Assembly: GCF_030345695.1 (NCBI RefSeq)
Contig: NZ_JAUASV010000006.1
Span: 1 to 64,000 of the forward strand
Origin: Galbitalea sp. SE-J8
GTDB taxonomy: Bacteria; Actinomycetota; Actinomycetes; Actinomycetales; Microbacteriaceae
Length of the DNA: 64,000 nucleotides
Direction: 5' to 3'
Shown: positions 6,292 to 17,041 of the stretch, piece after piece
Layout: the number at the start of each line of letters is the position of its first letter
Position numbering within the stretch: the first letter of the stretch is position 1
Notes under the pieces: model-generated
Told to the model about the DNA's origin: nothing
What the model saw: the letters and a program-made list of their open reading frames with translations, nothing else
Databases searched by the model: none
Made by a program: the position numbers and the translations under genes

Positions 6292-8743
<2,452 letters not shown>

Positions 8744-8747
<4 letters not shown>

Positions 8748-9979
8748 GCGGCATCCTTCAGGGCTGCGGAGAACAGGGCGGTGAACTCGGCGATCTCGGC
8801 GTCGCCGATCGTGAGCGGCGGCGCGAGACGGATGGTGGAGTCGTTGGCGGCGTTGACGATGAGTCCGCGGGCGAGCGCCGCGGTCGCGACGCGCTGCGCG
8901 ACGGGCGCGGTGAGCGCGACGCCGACGAGCAGCCCCGCGCCCCGGGTTCCCTCGACGAGCGGCGAGCCGATGCCCTCGATCGCGGCGCGCAGCTCGGCGC
9001 CGCGGCGGGCCGCGTTCGCCGGCAGATCGGCACGCTCGATCTCGCCCATGACCGCGTTGCCGACGGCCGTCGCGAGCGGGTTCCCGGCGTAGGTCGAGCC
9101 GTGCTGGCCCGCGGTGAACAGGTCGGATGCCGCCCCGAACGTCACGAGCGCACCGAGCGGGAAGCCGCCCGCGATGCCCTTCGCGACGGCGACGGCGTCG
9201 GGCAGGATGCCGTGCTGCTGGTACTCGAACCAGGTGCCCGTGCGGCCCATGCCGGTCTGGATCTCGTCGACGATGAGCAGCGCGCCGTGCTGCGCGGTGA
9301 GCTCCCGCGCCCGCTCCAGGAAGCCCGCGGGCAGCGGCAGCACGCCCGCCTCGCCCTTGATCGGCTCGAGGACGAGCGCCGCAGTCTGCCCGGTGATCGC
9401 CCTCTCGAGGGCGGCGATCGTCGAGTCGATGTGCACGACGCCCGGCACCATCGGCTCGAACGGACCCTGCAGCGCGGGCTTGCCGGTGAGCGCGAGCGCG
9501 CCCATCGTGCGGCCGTGGAACGCCTGGTGCAGAGCGACGATCGTGCCGTGCTGGCGGTTGCGCCGCGCGAGCTTGAACGCCGCCTCCATCGCCTCGGCGC
9601 CCGAGTTGCAGAAGTATACCCGGCCGGCGTCCCCCGCGCCCGTGACGCGTTTGAGCCGCTCGGCGAGCTCGACCTGCGGCGCCGACGCGAAGTAGTTCGA
9701 GATGTGCGCGAGCTTCGCGGCCTGCGTCGCGACGGCACCCACGAACACCGGATGCGCGTGGCCGAGCGCGTTGACCGCGATGCCCCCGAGGAAGTCGAGA
9801 TAGCGCTTGCCGTCGACATCCCAGACCTCGGCCCCGAGGCCGTGGTCGAGCTGGGTGAGCGGGGCGGGCGTGCTCTTCATGAGCGAGGCGGCGAAGCGGT
9901 CGCGCCACGACTCGGATTCTGGGGCCGGGTTTCGAGACGCTCCTTCGTCGCTCCTCAACCAGCGGGATTCCGCGTTCAT
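8744..9979 (-). CDS. argD: acetylornithine aminotransferase with repeat-encoded N-terminus
   Basis: PLP-dependent transamination of N-acetylglutamate semialdehyde. It has 411 aa. The PLP lysine is K267 (VAVAKGIAGGFPLGA), with DEIQTGMGRTG at 239-248. The start is the ATG overlapping the argB stop (ATGA). Residues about 6-17 (RWLRSDEGASRN) are encoded by a dispersed repeat element read in frame; the family-like sequence begins at about residue 25 (WRDRFAASLM). A later ATG (residue 34) would delete part of the conserved N-terminus, so I keep the coupled start. Part of argCJBDF. Confidence 0.93.
9928..9965. repeat. dispersed palindromic repeat, copy 2, inside argD
   Basis: GGTTTCGAGACGC ... CGCTCCTCAACCAGCGG, the same element as at 7741-7788 with a shorter middle. 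It lies wholly within the argD reading frame, a few codons after the ATG, and its 38 bp plus junctions preserve the frame. Confidence 0.72.
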
Positions 9980-10866
9980 GCGGGCACCACCTCCGTGCCG
10001 ATGCCCTCGGTCGTGAAGACCTCGAGCAGGATGCTGTGCGGCTGCCGTCCGTCGATGATCGCGGCCTTCGCGACGCCGCCCTGCACGGCATCGAGGCACG
10101 CGGTCATCTTCGGGATCATGCCGCTCTCCAGACCGGGCAGCATCCGCATGAGCTGCTCCGTGTCGATGACCGAGACGAGCGAGTCGCGGTTCGGCCAGTC
10201 GCTGTACAGCCCGGCCACGTCCGTCAGCACGACGAGCTTCGCGGCACCGAGCGCCGTCGCGAGCGCGGCCGCCGCGGCATCCGCATTGACGTTGAGGAAG
10301 CCGTCCGGACCGCGTGCGACGCTCGACACGACCGGGATGCGGCCCTCGTCGAGCGCGCGGACGATCGCGCGCGTGTCGGCCTCGACCGCGTCGCCGACGA
10401 GCCCGAGGTCGACCTCGACGCCGTCGACGATCGCGCCGCGCCTCTCGCCGCGGAACACCGTCTCGCCCGGGATGACCTCGGCGAGCCCGGGTGCACGTGG
10501 GCCGACGCGGTGCTCGTCGAGGTACCCGCCGAGCCGGGCGCTGATCGTGCCCGAGAGCACGTCGCGGATGACGTCGATCGTCTCGGCGGTCGTCACGCGA
10601 TAGCCGCCGCGGAACTCGCTCCCGATGCCGAGCTGGGCGAGGCGCGCCGAGATCTGCGGGCCGCCGCCGTGCACGACGACCGGGCGCACGCCCGCGTAGC
10701 GCAGGTAGACCATGTCGGCCGCGAAGTCGCGCTGCAGCTGCTCGTCGACCATGGCGTTGCCGCCGAACTTCACGACGATCGTCTCGCCGTGGAAACGCTG
10801 CAGCCAGGGCAGGCTCTCGACCAGCACGGCCGCCTTCTGCGCCGCCTGCTCGGCTGTCACGGTCAT
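9976..10866 (-). CDS. argB: acetylglutamate kinase
   Basis: Phosphorylates N-acetylglutamate, usually the feedback-inhibited step of the cyclic pathway. It has 296 aa. The amino-acid kinase fold is visible: VVKFGGNAM near residue 32, VVVHGGGPQ near 64, and FLNVNADAAAAALA. It starts 13 nt after argJ and its stop overlaps the argD start by 4 nt. An N-terminal helix before VVKFGG (residues 1-28) fits the arginine-sensitive, hexameric type. Confidence 0.97.
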   Translation of the reverse strand: MTVTAEQAAQKAAVLVESLPWLQRFHGETIVVKFGGNAMVDEQLQRDFAADMVYLRYAGVRPVVVHGGGPQISARLAQLGIGSEFRGGYRVTTAETIDVIRDVLSGTISARLGGYLDEHRVGPRAPGLAEVIPGETVFRGERRGAIVDGVEVDLGLVGDAVEADTRAIVRALDEGRIPVVSSVARGPDGFLNVNADAAAAALATALGAAKLVVLTDVAGLYSDWPNRDSLVSVIDTEQLMRMLPGLESGMIPKMTACLDAVQGGVAKAAIIDGRQPHSILLEVFTTEGIGTEVVPA

Positions 10867-10879
10867 GAGTCGGCTCCGT

Positions 10880-12037
10880 TCATGAGCTGTAGGCCGAGTT
10901 CTCGTGCACGTAGTCGTGCGTGAGGTCGTTCGTGCGGATCGTCGCCTCGTGCACGCCGGCCTTGAGGTCGATGAGCACGTGCGTCGTGCGCGGCGTGAGG
11001 TCGACCGCCTCGGCCGGCCGGTCGGGCTCGCCCGCCGCGCACACCCGCACGCCGTTCATCGTCACGTCGACCCGGTACGGATCGAAGTCCGCGTCCGTCG
11101 TGCCGATCGCGGCGAGCACGCGACCCCAGTTCGGGTCGTTGCCGAACACGGCCGCCTTGAACAGGTTGTTGCGGGCGACGCTGCGGCCGACCTCGACGGC
11201 GTCGTCCTCGCTCGCGGCGTGGATCACCTCGATCGCGATGTCGTGGCTCGCGCCCTCGGCATCCGCCTGCAGCTGACGGGCGAGGTCGTCGCACACCGCC
11301 GTGAGCGCGGCGGTCAGCGCGCTTCGCGTCGGCGTCACACCGGATGACCCGCTCGCGAGCAGCGTGACCTGGTCGTTCGTCGACATGCAGCCGTCGGAGT
11401 CGAGCCGGTCGAACGTCACGCGGGTCGCTGCGCGCAGGGCGGCGTCGAGGTCCGCGGATGCCGCCACCGCATCCGTCGTGATGACGACGAGCATGGTGGC
11501 GAGTCCGGGGGCGAGCATGCCCGCGCCCTTCGCCATCGCACCGACCTTCCAGCCGTCCCCGTCGAACGTCGAGCGCTTCGGCGTCGAGTCGGTGGTCATG
11601 ATGGCCTCGGATGCCGCCTCGCCCCCGTCGGCGCTCAGCGCGGACGCCGCCCGATCGACGCCGGCGAGCACGCCGTCCCGGAACTCCTCGCGGCCGTAGC
11701 CGATGAGGCCCGTCGAGCACACGAGCACGTCGCCCGCCGCGATGCCGAGCCGCTCGGCGACCCGCTCGGCGGTCAGGTGCGTTGTCTGGAAGCCGTAGGC
11801 GCCGGTGAAGCAGTTCGCGCCGCCGGAGTTGAGCACGACGGCATCCGCGCGGCCGTCGGCGATGGCCTGCCTCGACCAGATGATCGGATGCGCCTGGGCG
11901 CGATTGCTCGTGAAGACCGCTGCCGCGCTGCGCTGCGGGCCCACGTTCTGCACGAGCGCGACATCCTTGTTGCCGGTCTTCTTGAGGCCCGCGGCGACGC
12001 CCGCCGCCACGAAGCCCTCGGCGTACGTCACGCTCAC
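10880..12037 (-). CDS. argJ: bifunctional ornithine acetyltransferase / N-acetylglutamate synthase
   Basis: Recycles the acetyl group from acetylornithine to glutamate. It has 385 aa and is a self-cleaving Ntn-like enzyme: the precursor should split at the Ala180-Thr181 bond in [14 protein letters not shown], leaving Thr181 as nucleophile. The C-terminal VHENSAYSS block is the family signature. The GTG start overlaps the argC stop (GTGA). Its presence shows the organism uses the cyclic acetyl route and does not need ArgE. Confidence 0.97.
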
Positions 12038-13080
12038 GGCGCCACCCCGTTCACGCTGAGCCCGGCGGTCTCGTCGAGGCCGAGGGCGATGTTGGTCGAC
12101 TGGATCGCGGCGCCCGCGGTGCCCTTGACGAGGTTGTCGAGGGCCGTGACCGTCACGAGCCTCCCGGCGGTCTCGTCGATCGCGAGCCCGACGAGCGCGG
12201 TGTTCGCGCCGATCGTGTCGGCGACGCGCGGGTATTGCCCGGCCGGCGTCACGTGCACGAACGGCTCGTCGCCGTAGACGGCGTCGTACGCGGCCCTCAC
12301 GCTCTCGAGCGTGCTGCCGGGCGCGAGCCGCGCGGTCGCGGTGGCGAGGATGCCGCGGCTCATCGGCACGAGCATGGGCGTGAAGCTCACGGTCGTGCCC
12401 GTGCCGCCCGCGAGGGTCAGGTTCTGCACGATCTCGGGCGTGTGCCGGTGCGTGCCGCCGACACCGTACGCGTACGCGCTGCCGAGCACCTCGCTCGCGA
12501 GCAGGTTGGTGCGCAGGCTCTTGCCGGCGCCAGAGGGACCGACCGCGAGGATCGCGACGAGGTCCTCGGCGCTCACGAGCCCCGCCTGCACGGCGGGGGC
12601 GAGGCCGATGCTGATCGCCGTCACGTTGCATCCGGGCACCGCGATGCGGTTGACGCCCGCGAGGTGGTCGCGCTGCTTCGACCCGTCGGCGTGCACGAGC
12701 TCCGGCAGGCCGTAGGCCCACGCGCCGTGGTACTCGCCGCCGTAGAAGCGGGCCCAGGCGTCCGCATCCGTCAGCCGGTGGTCGGCGCCGCAGTCGACGA
12801 CCACGGTGCCGCCGCCGAGTTCGGCGGCGATCGCACCGGATGCGCCGTGCGGCAGCGCGAGGAAGACGATGTCGTGACCGGCGAGATTCGCGGCCGTGGT
12901 CTCGACGAGGGTCAGGTGCGCGAGTGAGCGCAGGTGGGGCTGGACGGCGATGAGCGGCTGACCGGCGTTCGAATGGGCGGTCACGGTCGTGACCTCGAAC
13001 TCGGGGTGGGCGGCCAGCAGCCGCAGCAGTTCGCCTCCCGCGTAGCCGGAGGCCCCGGCTACCGCGACGGAATAAGGCAT
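12034..13080 (-). CDS. argC: N-acetyl-gamma-glutamyl-phosphate reductase
   Basis: NADPH-dependent reduction in arginine synthesis. It has 348 aa. The nucleotide-binding [14 protein letters not shown] is at 9-22, the catalytic cysteine is C151 in VPGCNVTA, and a HRHTPE block matches the active-site histidine region. It is the first enzyme gene of the operon. The upstream region carries a leader peptide and hairpin. Only a weak ribosome binding site (GGTAGAGAG) precedes the ATG. Confidence 0.97.
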
Positions 13081-13123
13081 CTCTCTACCTTAGAAGGGGG
13101 ATCGGGACAGGAACGTCGGAGGC

Positions 13124-13171
13124 GGCGACATCCCTCGTCCGGGCACGACGGCCCGCATCCGGAGTGTCGCC
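13124..13171 (-). promoter_or_regulatory. putative attenuator hairpin before argC
   Basis: GGCGACA (13124-13130) pairs perfectly with TGTCGCC (13165-13171). Inside, CCGG/CCGG and GGGC/GCCC can extend the rod, giving a long stem between the leader-peptide stop and argC. It touches the leader stop codon, so a ribosome stalled on the arginine codons just upstream could change its folding. There is no U-run after it. Confidence 0.5.
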
Positions 13172-13236
13172 TAGCTTCGGCGCGCACGACGGACGCGGCG
13201 GCGCAGTGCGCTCTGCCGGGTCGTGCGGATGTCCAT
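13171..13236 (-). CDS. arginine-rich leader peptide of the arg operon
   Basis: A 21-codon frame starting at ATG 13236 and ending in TAG, 90 nt before argC. Nine of its 21 residues are arginine, including Arg12-14, Arg16-17 and Arg19-20 close to the stop. A -10 (TACGGT, 13248-13243) lies exactly 6 nt before the ATG, so the transcript would begin at the start codon, as in many actinobacterial leader peptides. A strong hairpin follows immediately. This is the classic layout of amino-acid attenuation (as for trp, his, leu leaders), here with the codons of the pathway product. No argR gene lies in the cluster, although many actinobacteria keep it beside argF. Confidence 0.62.
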   Translation of the reverse strand: MDIRTTRQSALRRRVRRARRS

Positions 13237-13242
13237 GGCCCT

Positions 13243-13289
13243 ACCGTAGCGCGCGACAGATCATTGCGCCAAACGGCGGATCATTGCGC
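13243..13289 (-). promoter_or_regulatory. promoter of the arg operon with paired upstream repeat
   Basis: The -10 is TACGGT (13248-13243); TTGGCG 18 bp upstream is a possible -35. Two copies of GATCATTGCGC (13259-13269 and 13279-13289) lie exactly 20 bp apart across the -35 region and could be an operator. They do not match the usual palindromic ARG box. Confidence 0.45.
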
Positions 13290-13345
13290 GTCCGGGTCGG
13301 TGTGCGAGCGGCGGCGCCGCGAGCTCGCCGCGAGGCAGCGGTTGG

Positions 13346-13400
13346 CGTTTCGCTTGGTGGAGTTCGTGCACCCGGTGCACGAACTCCACCAAGCGAAACG
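13346..13400. repeat. perfect 27-bp inverted repeat with 1-nt loop
   Basis: The arms 13346-13372 and 13374-13400 are exact complements (beginning CGTTTCGCTTGGTGGAGTTC). Shorter matches continue outside (GGCAGC-type blocks at about 13334 and 13410) with small insertions. It lies between the end of pheT (13467) and the arg promoter. It may end pheT transcription, or be a mobile palindromic element. Confidence 0.75.
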
Positions 13401-13466
13401 GGAACGGTGCTGCCGCTCGGACGCTGCGCGCGCGGCTGTTCGCGTCCCTCAGCGCGACAACCTTGG

Positions 13467-16001
13467 TCAGTCGCGGATCGCGGCCCCCGTGCGCTCGGTG
13501 GCGACGGCGACACCCGCGAGCTTCGCCGCGGTCGCCTCCTCGGCCGTGAGCGTGCGGTCGTCCGCGCGGAAACGCAGCGCGAACGTCAGCGAGACCGAGC
13601 CCTCGGGCACGCCCTGGCCGCGATACGCGTCCACGAGACGGATGCTCTCGAGCAGCGCGCCCGCCCCCTCGGCGACGGCGGCGGCGACGCCGGCCGCGGC
13701 GGTCGCATCCGTCACGACGAGCGAGAGGTCCTGGGTCGCGGCCGGGTAGCCGGAGATCGGGGACGCCGCGACGAGCTCCGGCGCGGCCGCGATGACCTGG
13801 TCGAGGTCGAGCTCGAGCACGCCCACGACGCGCGGCAGGTTCGCCTCGAGCGCGATCGCGGGCAGCAGCTCGCCCGCGTACCCGACGCGCCTCGCCCCGG
13901 CGAACAGGGCGGCCGAGCGGCCCGGGTGCAGGGCGTGGTGCGCGGCCTTCTCGACCCGCAGCTCGAGGCCGACGGATGCCGCGACCACGCGGGCGGCGTC
14001 GAGCGCATCCGCGATGCCCGCGGGCACGGCGGCGAGGCCCGGCTGGCGCGGCACCGTGTCACCGACGAACAGGGCGCTCACGAGCCGCGGCTGCGGCGGG
14101 ACGCTCGCGAACAGCGCCGCGAGCTCGTCCCCCGAGGGCCGCGACATGGCGTCCGGGAGTGCCCCGGCGACGCCGTACTCCGCGCCCGCCTCCGGACGTG
14201 CGACGCTGCCGACCTCGAACAGCGCGAGGTCGCCGAGACCGCGCGCGAGGTTGCGGTGCGCGGTCGCGATGAGTCCGGGGACGAGCGATGTCCGGATGTT
14301 CGCGGCGGTCGCGTCGAGCGGGTTCGCGATCACGACGGTGGGCACGGTCGCGCCAGCAGGATCCGCGAACAGCTGCGCCTGCGCATCCGTCGCGAACGGA
14401 TCGGTGAGCACCTCCGTCAGACCGGCCGCGGCGAGCGAGGCGGCCACCTGGCGGCGCAGCAGCTGCGCTCGGGTCAGCCCTCGCCCGGGCGGGGCGACCG
14501 GCAGCACCGAGCCGATGCGGTCGTAGCCTGTGATGCGCGCGACCTCCTCGACGAGCGAGGCGTCGTCGACGAGGTCGGGGCGCCAGCTCGGCGGCGTGAC
14601 GGCGAGGCCGCCGTCGACGGCCTCGACGCTCGCGCCGATCGCCTCGATGGCGCCGCGCACCTCGTCGGCCGTGTAGTCGACGCCGATGAGGCTCGCGGCG
14701 CGGCCGTCGCGCAGCAGAATCGACGGGGTCGGCGCGACGTCCGCGAAGACGGCACCGAGCTCGTCGATCGTGCCGCCCGCGAGCCCGACGAGCAGCTCGG
14801 CGGCACGCGCCGCGGCGACCGCCGCGACGGCGGGGTCGACGCCGCGCTCGAAGCGTCGCGAGGCCTCGCTCGGCAGCTTGTGGCGGCGAGCCGTGCGCGC
14901 GATCGACACCCGGTCGAATCCGGCGGCCTCGATGAGCACGTCGGTCGTGACGGCCGTGATCTCGGTCGCAGCTCCGCCCATGACGCCCGCGAGGCCGATC
15001 GGGCCGGAGTCGTCGGTGATCACGAGGTCCTCGGGGTCGAGCGCGCGCACGACGCCGTCGAGGGTCTCGAGCGTCTCGCCCGCGCGCGCGCGACGCACTG
15101 TGATGCCGCCCGCGAGGGTGCCGAGGTCGTAGCCGTGCAGCGGCTGGCCGAGCTCGATCATGACGTAGTTCGTGATGTCCACGGGCAGCGAGATCGATCG
15201 GATGCCGGCGAGCTTCAGCCGCGAGATCATCCAGGCCGGCGTCGGACGCGTCGGGTCGATGCCGCGCACGACGCGCGCGACGAAACCGTGGCATCCGGCG
15301 TTCCCGCGGATCGGGGCGTCGTCGGCGACCGTCACGGGGAAGCCCGCCGGCTCCGGGAGCGCTTCGAGAGCATCGGCGAGCGAGACGGCCGGGTCGCGGA
15401 ACTCGGCGCCCGTCGACAGCGCGTACTCGCGGGCGAGGCCGCGGATCGAGAGCGCGTAGCCGCGGTCGGGCGTCACGTTCACGTCGACCGCGAAGTCGTC
15501 CAGGCCGAGCAGGGCGATCGCATCCGCGCCGACGGGCGCGTCGCCGAGTCCGATCTCGGCCAGACGCAGGATGCCCGCGTGGTCCTCTCCGAGGCCGAGT
15601 TCCCGCGCCGAGGCGATCATGCCGTCGGAGACGTGGCCGTAGGTCGTGCGCGCCGCGATCGGGAACGGACCGGGCAGCACGGCGCCCGGGAGCGTCACCA
15701 CGACCTTGTCGCCGACCCCGAAGTTGTGGGCGCCGCAGACGATCCCTCGAATGTCTCGCGCGTGTCCTGGGCCCGTCGAGGGGCCGACGTCGACGGAGCA
15801 CCAGTTGATCGTCTTGCCGTTCGACTGCGGCTCGGGCTCGAGCGACAGCACCCGGCCGACGACGACGGGGCCGGAGATGCCGGTCGCGATGACCTCCTCC
15901 TCCTCGAAGCCGACCCGCACGAGGGCGGCGTGCAGGTGCTCGGCGGAGACGTCCTCGGGCAGGCCGACGTACTCGCCGAGCCACGACGCGGGCACGCGCA
16001 T
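13467..16001 (-). CDS. pheT: phenylalanyl-tRNA synthetase beta subunit
   Basis: Large subunit of the alpha2-beta2 enzyme; it recognises tRNA-Phe and edits mischarged tyrosine. It has 844 aa, standard for bacteria. The N-terminal SWLGEYV, the EMAP/tRNA-binding-like domain at about 40-150, the B3/B4 editing region (GIDPTRPTPAWM, LGQPLHGYDL) and the C-terminal ferredoxin-fold anticodon-binding domain (about 750-844, ending near TLTAEEATAAKLAGV) are all present. The ATG overlaps the pheS stop by one base (TGATG). Confidence 0.97.
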   Translation of the reverse strand: MRVPASWLGEYVGLPEDVSAEHLHAALVRVGFEEEEVIATGISGPVVVGRVLSLEPEPQSNGKTINWCSVDVGPSTGPGHARDIRGIVCGAHNFGVGDKVVVTLPGAVLPGPFPIAARTTYGHVSDGMIASARELGLGEDHAGILRLAEIGLGDAPVGADAIALLGLDDFAVDVNVTPDRGYALSIRGLAREYALSTGAEFRDPAVSLADALEALPEPAGFPVTVADDAPIRGNAGCHGFVARVVRGIDPTRPTPAWMISRLKLAGIRSISLPVDITNYVMIELGQPLHGYDLGTLAGGITVRRARAGETLETLDGVVRALDPEDLVITDDSGPIGLAGVMGGAATEITAVTTDVLIEAAGFDRVSIARTARRHKLPSEASRRFERGVDPAVAAVAAARAAELLVGLAGGTIDELGAVFADVAPTPSILLRDGRAASLIGVDYTADEVRGAIEAIGASVEAVDGGLAVTPPSWRPDLVDDASLVEEVARITGYDRIGSVLPVAPPGRGLTRAQLLRRQVAASLAAAGLTEVLTDPFATDAQAQLFADPAGATVPTVVIANPLDATAANIRTSLVPGLIATAHRNLARGLGDLALFEVGSVARPEAGAEYGVAGALPDAMSRPSGDELAALFASVPPQPRLVSALFVGDTVPRQPGLAAVPAGIADALDAARVVAASVGLELRVEKAAHHALHPGRSAALFAGARRVGYAGELLPAIALEANLPRVVGVLELDLDQVIAAAPELVAASPISGYPAATQDLSLVVTDATAAAGVAAAVAEGAGALLESIRLVDAYRGQGVPEGSVSLTFALRFRADDRTLTAEEATAAKLAGVAVATERTGAAIRD

Positions 16002-17041
16002 CAGATCACCATCCCGAACTGCTGGCTGAAGCGGATGTCGCCCTCGGCGAAGTCGCGCATGTCGTTGAGGTCGTTGCGGAACTGCAGCGTGCGCTCGATG
16101 CCGAGCCCGAACGCGAAGCCCTGGTACTCGTCGGGGTCGACGCCCGCGGCCCGCAGCACGTTCGGGTTGACCATGCCGCATCCGCCCCACTCGACCCAGC
16201 GGGCGCCGCCCTTCGCGTTCGGCTGCCAGACGTCCATCTCGGCGGAGGGCTCGGTGAACGGGAAGTAGTTCGGGCGCAGCCGGATCTGTGCGCCCGCGCC
16301 GAACATCGCGCGGGCCAGGTGCTCGAGCGTGCCCCGCAGGTGCGCCATCGTCAGGCCGCGGTCGATCGCGATGCCCTCGATCTGGTGGAAGACGGGCAGG
16401 TGCGTGGCATCCAGTTCGTCCTTGCGGAAGGTCTTGCCGGGCGAGACGACGTACACCGGCAGCTCGCGCCCGAGCAGCGAGCGGATCTGCACGGGGCTCG
16501 TCTGCGTGCGCAGCAGCAGGTGACGCTCCTCGGGGGCGAGGTAGAACGTGTCCTGGTCGCTGCGGGCGGGGTGGTCGGCGTCCATGTTGAGGGCGTCGAA
16601 GTTGAACCACTCGTTCTCGACCTCCGGGCCCTCGCCGATCTCCCACCCCATGCCGATGAAGATGTCGCCCATGCGCTCCATGAGGATCGAGAGCGGATGC
16701 CGCGACCCGACCCGGGCACGCGAGGGCACCGCGGTCACGTCGAGCGCCTCGGCCGCGAGACGCGCGGCCTCCTCGGCGACGGCGAGCTCGGCCTCCCGGT
16801 CGGCGATCGCGGCGTTCACCCGGCCGCGGGCCTGGCCGACGAGCTTGCCGAGCGCGGCCTTCTGGTCGTTCGGCACGGAGCGCAGGCCCTGGTTGAAGCG
16901 CGCGAGCGGCGACCCCTCCCCCGCGTGCGCGGACCGGGCCTGCTTGAGCTCGCTCACCGTGGCGGCCTCGGCGACGGCCGCGAGGGCCTCGCTCACCGCC
17001 TGCTCGACCCCCTCGGGCGTGATCGGGGTGGGTTCTGACAC
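16001..17041 (-). CDS. pheS: phenylalanyl-tRNA synthetase alpha subunit
   Basis: Catalytic subunit, class II. It has 346 aa. An N-terminal coiled coil (about 10-85) is followed by motif 2 (FHQIEGIAID) and motif 3 (GFAFGLGIERTLQFRNDLNDMRDF). GTG 17041 is chosen because the protein then matches the family length; an ATG 96 nt upstream would read through a tandem repeat (17071-17141) that is clearly not coding. Operon partner pheT follows directly. Confidence 0.96.
   Translation of the reverse strand: MSEPTPITPEGVEQAVSEALAAVAEAATVSELKQARSAHAGEGSPLARFNQGLRSVPNDQKAALGKLVGQARGRVNAAIADREAELAVAEEAARLAAEALDVTAVPSRARVGSRHPLSILMERMGDIFIGMGWEIGEGPEVENEWFNFDALNMDADHPARSDQDTFYLAPEERHLLLRTQTSPVQIRSLLGRELPVYVVSPGKTFRKDELDATHLPVFHQIEGIAIDRGLTMAHLRGTLEHLARAMFGAGAQIRLRPNYFPFTEPSAEMDVWQPNAKGGARWVEWGGCGMVNPNVLRAAGVDPDEYQGFAFGLGIERTLQFRNDLNDMRDFAEGDIRFSQQFGMVI

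Follow-up and report, generated by a model that had tools for sequence, protein, structure and literature searches.

A putative ribosome-read arginine leader upstream of argC in Microbacteriaceae, a family in which no ArgR was found

Arginine operons are the standard example of control by the ArgR repressor, and leader-peptide attenuators are known for the trp, his, leu, ilv and thr operons. In Actinobacteria there is a trp leader, together with candidate leu, ilv and cys leaders, and in fungi arginine attenuator peptides sense free arginine through the nascent chain. Upstream of actinobacterial arginine operons, Seliverstov et al. (2005) found no conserved RNA regulatory structure, Leifsonia xyli being among their genomes (PMC1262725). 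Arginine is sensed by leaders elsewhere: in the orf34-speF leader of Salmonella, consecutive Arg codons of an upstream open reading frame (uORF) respond to arginine via ribosome pausing, with Rho-dependent termination involved (PMC6386406), and in S. aureus the Arg-codon leader rbfL senses arginine limitation via tRNA charging (PMC13009471). Salmonella speF and S. aureus rbf are the only bacterial Arg-sensing leaders that we found in the open-access literature, and neither concerns arginine biosynthesis. No published attenuator of arginine biosynthesis of the kind considered here was found in that literature, subscription papers being largely outside its reach.

The locus studied here belongs to Galbitalea sp. 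SE-J8 and lies in a window of 64,000 nucleotides, the whole stretch of DNA that was analysed (contig NZ_JAUASV010000006.1, positions 1 to 64,000). A short arginine-rich frame, with pheT (13467-16004) sitting upstream of it, precedes the arginine operon, and the features of the region are as follows:

13270..13275, minus strand: -35-like element CGTTTG of the leader promoter (family consensus GATTNG)
13243..13248, minus strand: -10 element TACGGT of the leader promoter, a TAnnnT ahead of the start codon
13171..13236, minus strand: Arg-rich leader peptide MDIRTTRQSALRRRVRRARRS*, translation from a leaderless mRNA predicted
13177..13179, minus strand: last Arg codon, CGA in nearly every leader, with exactly 5 nt separating it from the hairpin 5' arm
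13165..13171, minus strand: hairpin 5' arm GGCGACA, from the comparison of leaders
13124..13130, minus strand: hairpin 3' arm TGTCGCC, from the comparison and from covariation of outer-stem pairs
13092..13123, minus strand: C-rich, G-poor spacer from hairpin to Shine-Dalgarno, from base composition
13088..13091, minus strand: Shine-Dalgarno AAGG of argC, from conservation
12034..13080, minus strand: argC, first gene of the arginine operon (TIGR01850)
10880-12037, minus strand: argJ (NCBIfam match)
9976-10866, minus strand: argB (NCBIfam match)
8744-9973, minus strand: argD (NCBIfam match)
7806-8747, minus strand: argF (NCBIfam match)
6292-7740, minus strand: argH (NCBIfam match)

The first-pass annotation had placed here a 21-codon frame with nine Arg codons, starting 6 nt after a -10 element and ending at a hairpin, 90 nt before argC, and its coordinates are correct: the 6 nt separate TACGGT (13248-13243) from the leader ATG at 13236-13234 of the minus strand, seven of the nine Arg fall in codons 12-20, and the 90 nt run from the leader stop codon to the argC start (13080). 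The -35-like element begins 27 nt ahead of the -10 hexamer, and the hairpin 5' arm begins at 13171, the final base of the stop codon. The pattern CGCCGA-N5-GGCGAC-N15..45-GTCGCC occurs a single time in the 3.33-Mb genome, at this leader; being unique to the argC locus, it reveals no second leader of this kind in SE-J8. The pathway gene missing from the cluster, argG, is located elsewhere in the genome and is seemingly leaderless, and no Arg-rich leader was found ahead of it. Within the window no match to Rfam, T-box and known leader families included, was obtained at gathering score.

Two repeats were observed around the leader promoter. Direct copies of GATCATTGCGC, two in number and 20 nt apart, flank its -35 element (window 13254-13289); they could be an operator for some unidentified regulator, and no such copies were apparent by eye in the upstream sequences of relatives. 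Between pheT and the leader promoter lies a 32-nt inverted repeat (13341-13405), with arms 94% complementary, 1 nt apart and with core GTTTCGCTTGGTGGAGTTCGTGCAC / GTGCACGAACTCCACCAAGCGAAAC; it may be a small repeat element or serve as the terminator of pheT.

It had also been remarked at the outset that the cluster contains no argR and no recognisable ARG box, and this holds genome-wide. In the window argH comes directly after argF, with no argR between them, and the whole SE-J8 assembly, 96.5% complete, gave no match to PF01316 or PF02863. Every member of the family that was tested lacks argR: PF01316 was found in none of 200 Microbacteriaceae genomes from 85 genera, the control genomes of the same search gave matches, and in the order's other families ArgR is present in 181 of 184 genomes. 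As ArgR is not encoded, SE-J8 cannot be assigned to an ArgR regulon. In the other families (loci L165-L190), argC looks leaderless and carries right on its -10 a palindrome (TGTATAGTTATGCGCATG, TGTATAGTTATGCAC) that we presume to be ARG-box-like from its appearance and general knowledge, without binding data; an argR match lies about 5 kb from argC where both were located. From these counts it is evident that the loss of ArgR coincides with the leader-bearing family, and on this comparative basis the leader system has apparently taken the place of ArgR in Microbacteriaceae.

The conservation of the leader was observed in two partly overlapping sets of 80 loci each, collected as ArgC relatives, the first from named genomes and the second from further genomes of the family. 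When short frames were sought that have TAnnnT 5-8 nt ahead of their start codon, an Arg-rich leader was found at 38 of the 80 loci of the first set, the SE-J8 window being additional, and one further leader (L006) has a -10 spacing of 9 nt. Under a stricter criterion, a leaderless ORF with at least four Arg in 10 residues upstream of argC, leaders were found in 47 of 80 further Microbacteriaceae genomes, versus 0.3 in shuffled sequence; none of 25 genomes from other families of the order had an Arg-rich leader upstream of argC. The search of relatives that had been proposed for this frame thus found the frame, the promoter spacing, the Arg cluster and the hairpin conserved across the family, and the outcome that would have refuted the proposal, a frame not conserved in relatives, did not occur when this search was run.

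Using the in-frame motif CGA-N5-GG(C/A)G, we defined 81 distinct leaders. They are 20-37 codons long and contain 5-10 Arg each (median 8); 42 start with ATG and 39 with GTG, and the gap between -10 and start codon is 6 nt in 61 of them and 7 nt in 18. Their sequences are diverse (for example MDIRGTATSDLRRLDRRARRS, MTGIRTTDDSLELRRVLRRRGTDERR and MSTARPAPTARVLRAVVLRGRRRGERRIQATPAAA) and the layout is common to them. When leader promoters were aligned, the -35-like GATTNG appeared conserved, with T in 68/80 and G in 59/80 at two key positions.

On the ArgC tree, five changes are needed to explain the presence or absence of the leader, and leaders occur on either side of the family's deepest split that is well sampled. 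Because leaders flank this split and the root lies among the other families, parsimony suggests that the leader was probably ancestral in Microbacteriaceae and was then lost several times; the losses so inferred concern Cryobacterium, Frigoribacterium with Curtobacterium, the Rathayibacter-Clavibacter-Herbiconiux-Subtercola group, and Aurantimicrobium. About 40% of the family genomes sampled have neither leader nor ArgR, suggesting that arginine control through the leader is dispensable there. In leader-less Rathayibacter, Clavibacter, Herbiconiux, Subtercola and Cryobacterium (L009, L013, L046, L055, L069 and similar loci), a TAGATTTGA- or TAGGTTTAA-like sequence was observed 6-7 nt before the argC ATG, and neither an Arg leader nor an ARG box is present at those argC starts. 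One locus labelled as an Acidobacteria MAG (L050, JABBOD010000006.1) has the leader, and its ArgC is placed inside Microbacteriaceae; the bin is probably mixed or wrongly labelled.

The Arg codons of the leaders show a bias of their own. Among 304 such codons in the first 40 leaders we counted 66 CGA, 70 CGU, 142 CGC and 26 CGG, and no AGG or AGA; argC of the same loci (n=601) has 17 CGA, 40 CGU, 182 CGG and 37 AGG plus AGA. CGA therefore represents 22% of Arg codons in leaders versus 3% in argC, and the set CGU/CGC/CGA 91% versus 64%. These three codons are read by tRNA-Arg(ICG). Their position is also constrained: CGA-N5-GG is found in nearly all leaders, even in those picked without that criterion, and the CGA-N5-GGCG spacing is fixed across leaders. 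Relative to the conserved CGA, Arg clusters at codons -3 to -8 and never stands at -2, and CGA is frequent again at codon -6. Across the 81 leaders the Arg content is 28.5% in the reading frame versus 13% and 18% in the other two, which supports translation of the leader frame. A leader attenuator in the broad sense calls for a frame rich in codons for the product upstream of the operon; this frame meets that definition, its translation being inferred.

An attenuator also calls for an RNA structure beside the regulatory codons that the position of the ribosome can alter, and the leaders have one, the 5' arm lying 5 nt past CGA. Usual toeprint distances suggest that a ribosome with this codon in its A site would extend over about four to six bases at the start of the arm. 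The SE-J8 transcript from 13070 to 13236 folds better than its shuffles (z -2.5), and its minimum-energy fold differs from the simple 2:3 hairpin; the 2:3 hairpin is established as a comparative prediction, through the relatives. From 5' arm to Shine-Dalgarno, the 81 leaders have a mean z of -2.2 against dinucleotide shuffles, compared with -0.26 for an argC control.

The first four pairs of the stem are practically invariant among leaders. At pairs 5-12, 470 of 648 cells are paired, versus 404 +/- 8 in shuffled sequences, and 100 are doubly changed, versus 58 +/- 6, so that in this first count the covariation of the outer stem exceeds both shuffles and slid controls. Since the arms had been chosen by their pairing, a second test set the 3' arm only by its distance to the AUG and left out near-copies. 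In this repetition 341 of 528 cells are paired (306 +/- 7 in shuffles) and 73 show double changes (47 +/- 5), no shuffle reaching either value. The repeated test is weaker than the first, the slide -2 control tying the double-change count, and it should be noted that none of these figures is a probability, because the leader sequences are related by descent. No useful structure came out of RNAalifold run on a MAFFT alignment, the loop being too variable in length, and the anchored stem count was used instead. The hairpin measures 40-69 nt (median 48), and 38-42 nt separate its end from the argC AUG in the middle half of the loci.

Over the leaders, the spacer that follows the hairpin contains 45.5% C and 19.3% G; in leader-less relatives, as in other families, the corresponding interval has roughly as much C as G. 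It is a possible Rho-loading or unstructured segment, and the C-rich, G-poor stretch downstream of the leader that a Rho-dependent attenuator would need is present. Beyond it, 76 of 81 loci have an AAGG no more than 18 nt ahead of the argC start codon. The surrounding TAAGGT also resembles a -10 element (TAnnnT in 62/81 loci), and therefore part of argC transcription could begin downstream of the leader.

We interpret this region as a ribosome-mediated leader that senses the end product and attenuates the arginine operon, and we give this reading a probability of roughly 70%. RNA polymerase would initiate at or beside the leader ATG, a leaderless start that is inferred, so that the mRNA would open with the leader frame and ribosomes would load without a Shine-Dalgarno. 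If Arg-tRNA, mainly the ICG isoacceptor, is charged, ribosomes would move on through the Arg cluster and across the hairpin foot, and if it is uncharged they would stall within the cluster or at the slow CGA codon. A ribosome stalled with CGA in its A site would have its front edge on the 5' arm, and the single hairpin would be open or closed according to ribosome position. The state of the hairpin would set either the amount of transcript reaching argCJBDFH or the efficiency of argC translation. Sequence comparison by itself demonstrates the conservation, the codon bias, the fixed geometry, the hairpin and the loss of ArgR and ARG box; the direction of the response (low arginine, operon on), and the response of the operon to arginine itself, are inferences. 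Two points stand against the proposal: half of a classical attenuator is missing, and there are no expression data.

What is missing became apparent when sixteen pairings between segments (Arg codons, arms, loop, spacer, Shine-Dalgarno and early argC) were compared. Only 2:3 is clearly above shuffles (z -1.9); the 1:2 pairing has z -0.2, and all 3:x pairings lie between -0.4 and +0.5. Mutually exclusive antiterminator and terminator hairpins are thus not found, there being no 3:4 helix, and the sequences as read have no intrinsic terminator, the hairpin being followed by a C-rich spacer without a U run. Masking of the Shine-Dalgarno as in erm/cat-type systems is not supported by thermodynamic prediction, in which no helix pairing with it is clearly above shuffles. 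Without a competing hairpin, a U-tract or a masking helix, this is not a textbook trp-type attenuator. Of the attenuation layout with end-product codons first proposed, the arrangement gained support from its conservation, but a textbook form, with 3:4 helix, U-tract or Shine-Dalgarno mask, was not supported. A GAUCG/CGAUC pairing of the last leader codons with the sequence before the Shine-Dalgarno, noticed by eye in Glaciihabitans-like loci, was rejected, as it fails in other groups.

A classical trp-type mechanism, with exclusive 1:2, 2:3 and 3:4 hairpins and an intrinsic terminator, therefore appears improbable. The Arg codons do adjoin the hairpin, and leaders having CGC before CGA offer a candidate 1:2 hairpin (CGCC with the GGCG of the 5' arm), but DERR-type leaders lack this option, and the results just given, with 2:3 alone beating shuffles and no U-tract, speak against it. 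The main rival is translational attenuation, in which the stalled ribosome or the hairpin would govern access to the argC Shine-Dalgarno and leave transcription unchanged. The conserved AAGG and the nearly constant distance from hairpin to AUG agree with it, and mycobacteria offer a precedent for leaderless uORFs in their cysteine-rich leaders (PMC4633059). However, the predicted accessibility of the Shine-Dalgarno stays at 0.54-0.56 for all three ribosome positions considered (Arg cluster, CGA and stop codon). We regard this alternative as less likely than not, and as second among the possible readouts. As to the readout of the proposed leader, we favour premature, Rho-dependent termination within the C-rich spacer, because both Rho and translated uORFs are documented in Mycobacterium (PMC12810186) and in the speF leader; this choice is inferred and stays somewhat short of an even chance.

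Two other explanations dispense with tRNA charging or with the leader itself. If the leader were an arrest peptide, free arginine would be sensed via the nascent chain; a poly-basic chain close to a regulatory hairpin would suit this idea, but selection acts on the CGA codon and its distance to the hairpin more than on the peptide, whose residue before CGA varies (Arg, Glu, Val, Gly, His, Asp) and whose remainder varies widely, which leaves the idea with very little in its favour. Alternatively, argC's own promoter, TAAGGT 6-8 nt before the AUG, could be the dominant one, the frame being a chance occurrence or an unrelated small gene. TAnnnT is present there at 62 of the 81 leader loci, as mentioned, and leader-less clades seem to employ such a promoter (TAGATTT..ATG). 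Yet AAGG is more constant than the flanking T's, several loci having AAGG without TAnnnT, and the matching distance upstream is C-rich with no T-rich -35-like block, unlike the leader promoter. This explanation would moreover leave the Arg enrichment, the CGA geometry and the covarying hairpin unaccounted for, and we consider it a poor candidate.

Concerning the origin of the leader, the 3' end of pheT is a possible source. The leader ends GERLGASFPG and GVRFGAPLFG resemble GERFGATLRE, the C-terminus of the upstream pheT (leaders of L042, L048, L062 and L004), and in Frigoribacterium and Curtobacterium the CGA-N5-GGCG motif was observed within the pheT 3' end. Identity between leader and pheT is 49% at the shared register versus 31% at others, a difference due in part to the common motif.

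A more specific formulation, which we offer tentatively, is that Microbacteriaceae swapped ArgR for a minimal leaderless Arg-codon leader, with a single CGA-gated hairpin and a Rho readout; its design would rely on a slow, precisely placed CGA and would do without an alternative hairpin or an intrinsic terminator. If true, it would be the first attenuator of bacterial arginine biosynthesis described, within the literature searched. In a family of more than 80 genera without ArgR, most of the genera sampled carry this apparent ribosome-read arginine sensor. Other families with ArgR, Microbacteriaceae with the leader and Microbacteriaceae with neither are natural comparison groups, and a CGA at fixed distance from a single hairpin is a simple, directly testable model of control by a pausing ribosome in high-G+C bacteria, for which U-tract terminators are described as scarce (PMC12810186, for M. 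tuberculosis).

Like the amino-acid attenuators, the arg leader is short, clusters codons for the end product beside a hairpin and stands upstream of a biosynthetic operon; it differs from them in responding, as proposed, to arginine, in being apparently leaderless and in having no detected competing hairpin or U-tract terminator. The mycobacterial cysteine uORFs (PMC4633059) are similar in their place at the head of the operon, in their clustered product codons and in the absence of the classical parts, to which the arg leader adds a conserved hairpin and a fixed distance from CGA to that hairpin. It resembles orf34-speF (PMC6386406) in that uORF Arg codons would serve as its arginine sensor, but that system targets an ornithine decarboxylase, with only two adjacent Arg codons, an unrelated peptide and a leader of about 516 nt. 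The rbfL leader (PMC13009471) instead overlaps the ribosome binding site of a biofilm regulator, low arginine lowers translation there, and no hairpin switch is involved. ArgR/ARG-box repression has the same target operon and the same end product but works through a DNA-binding repressor. The Microbacteriaceae leader is a clear example in which cis-acting translational sensing has apparently supplanted a transcription factor.
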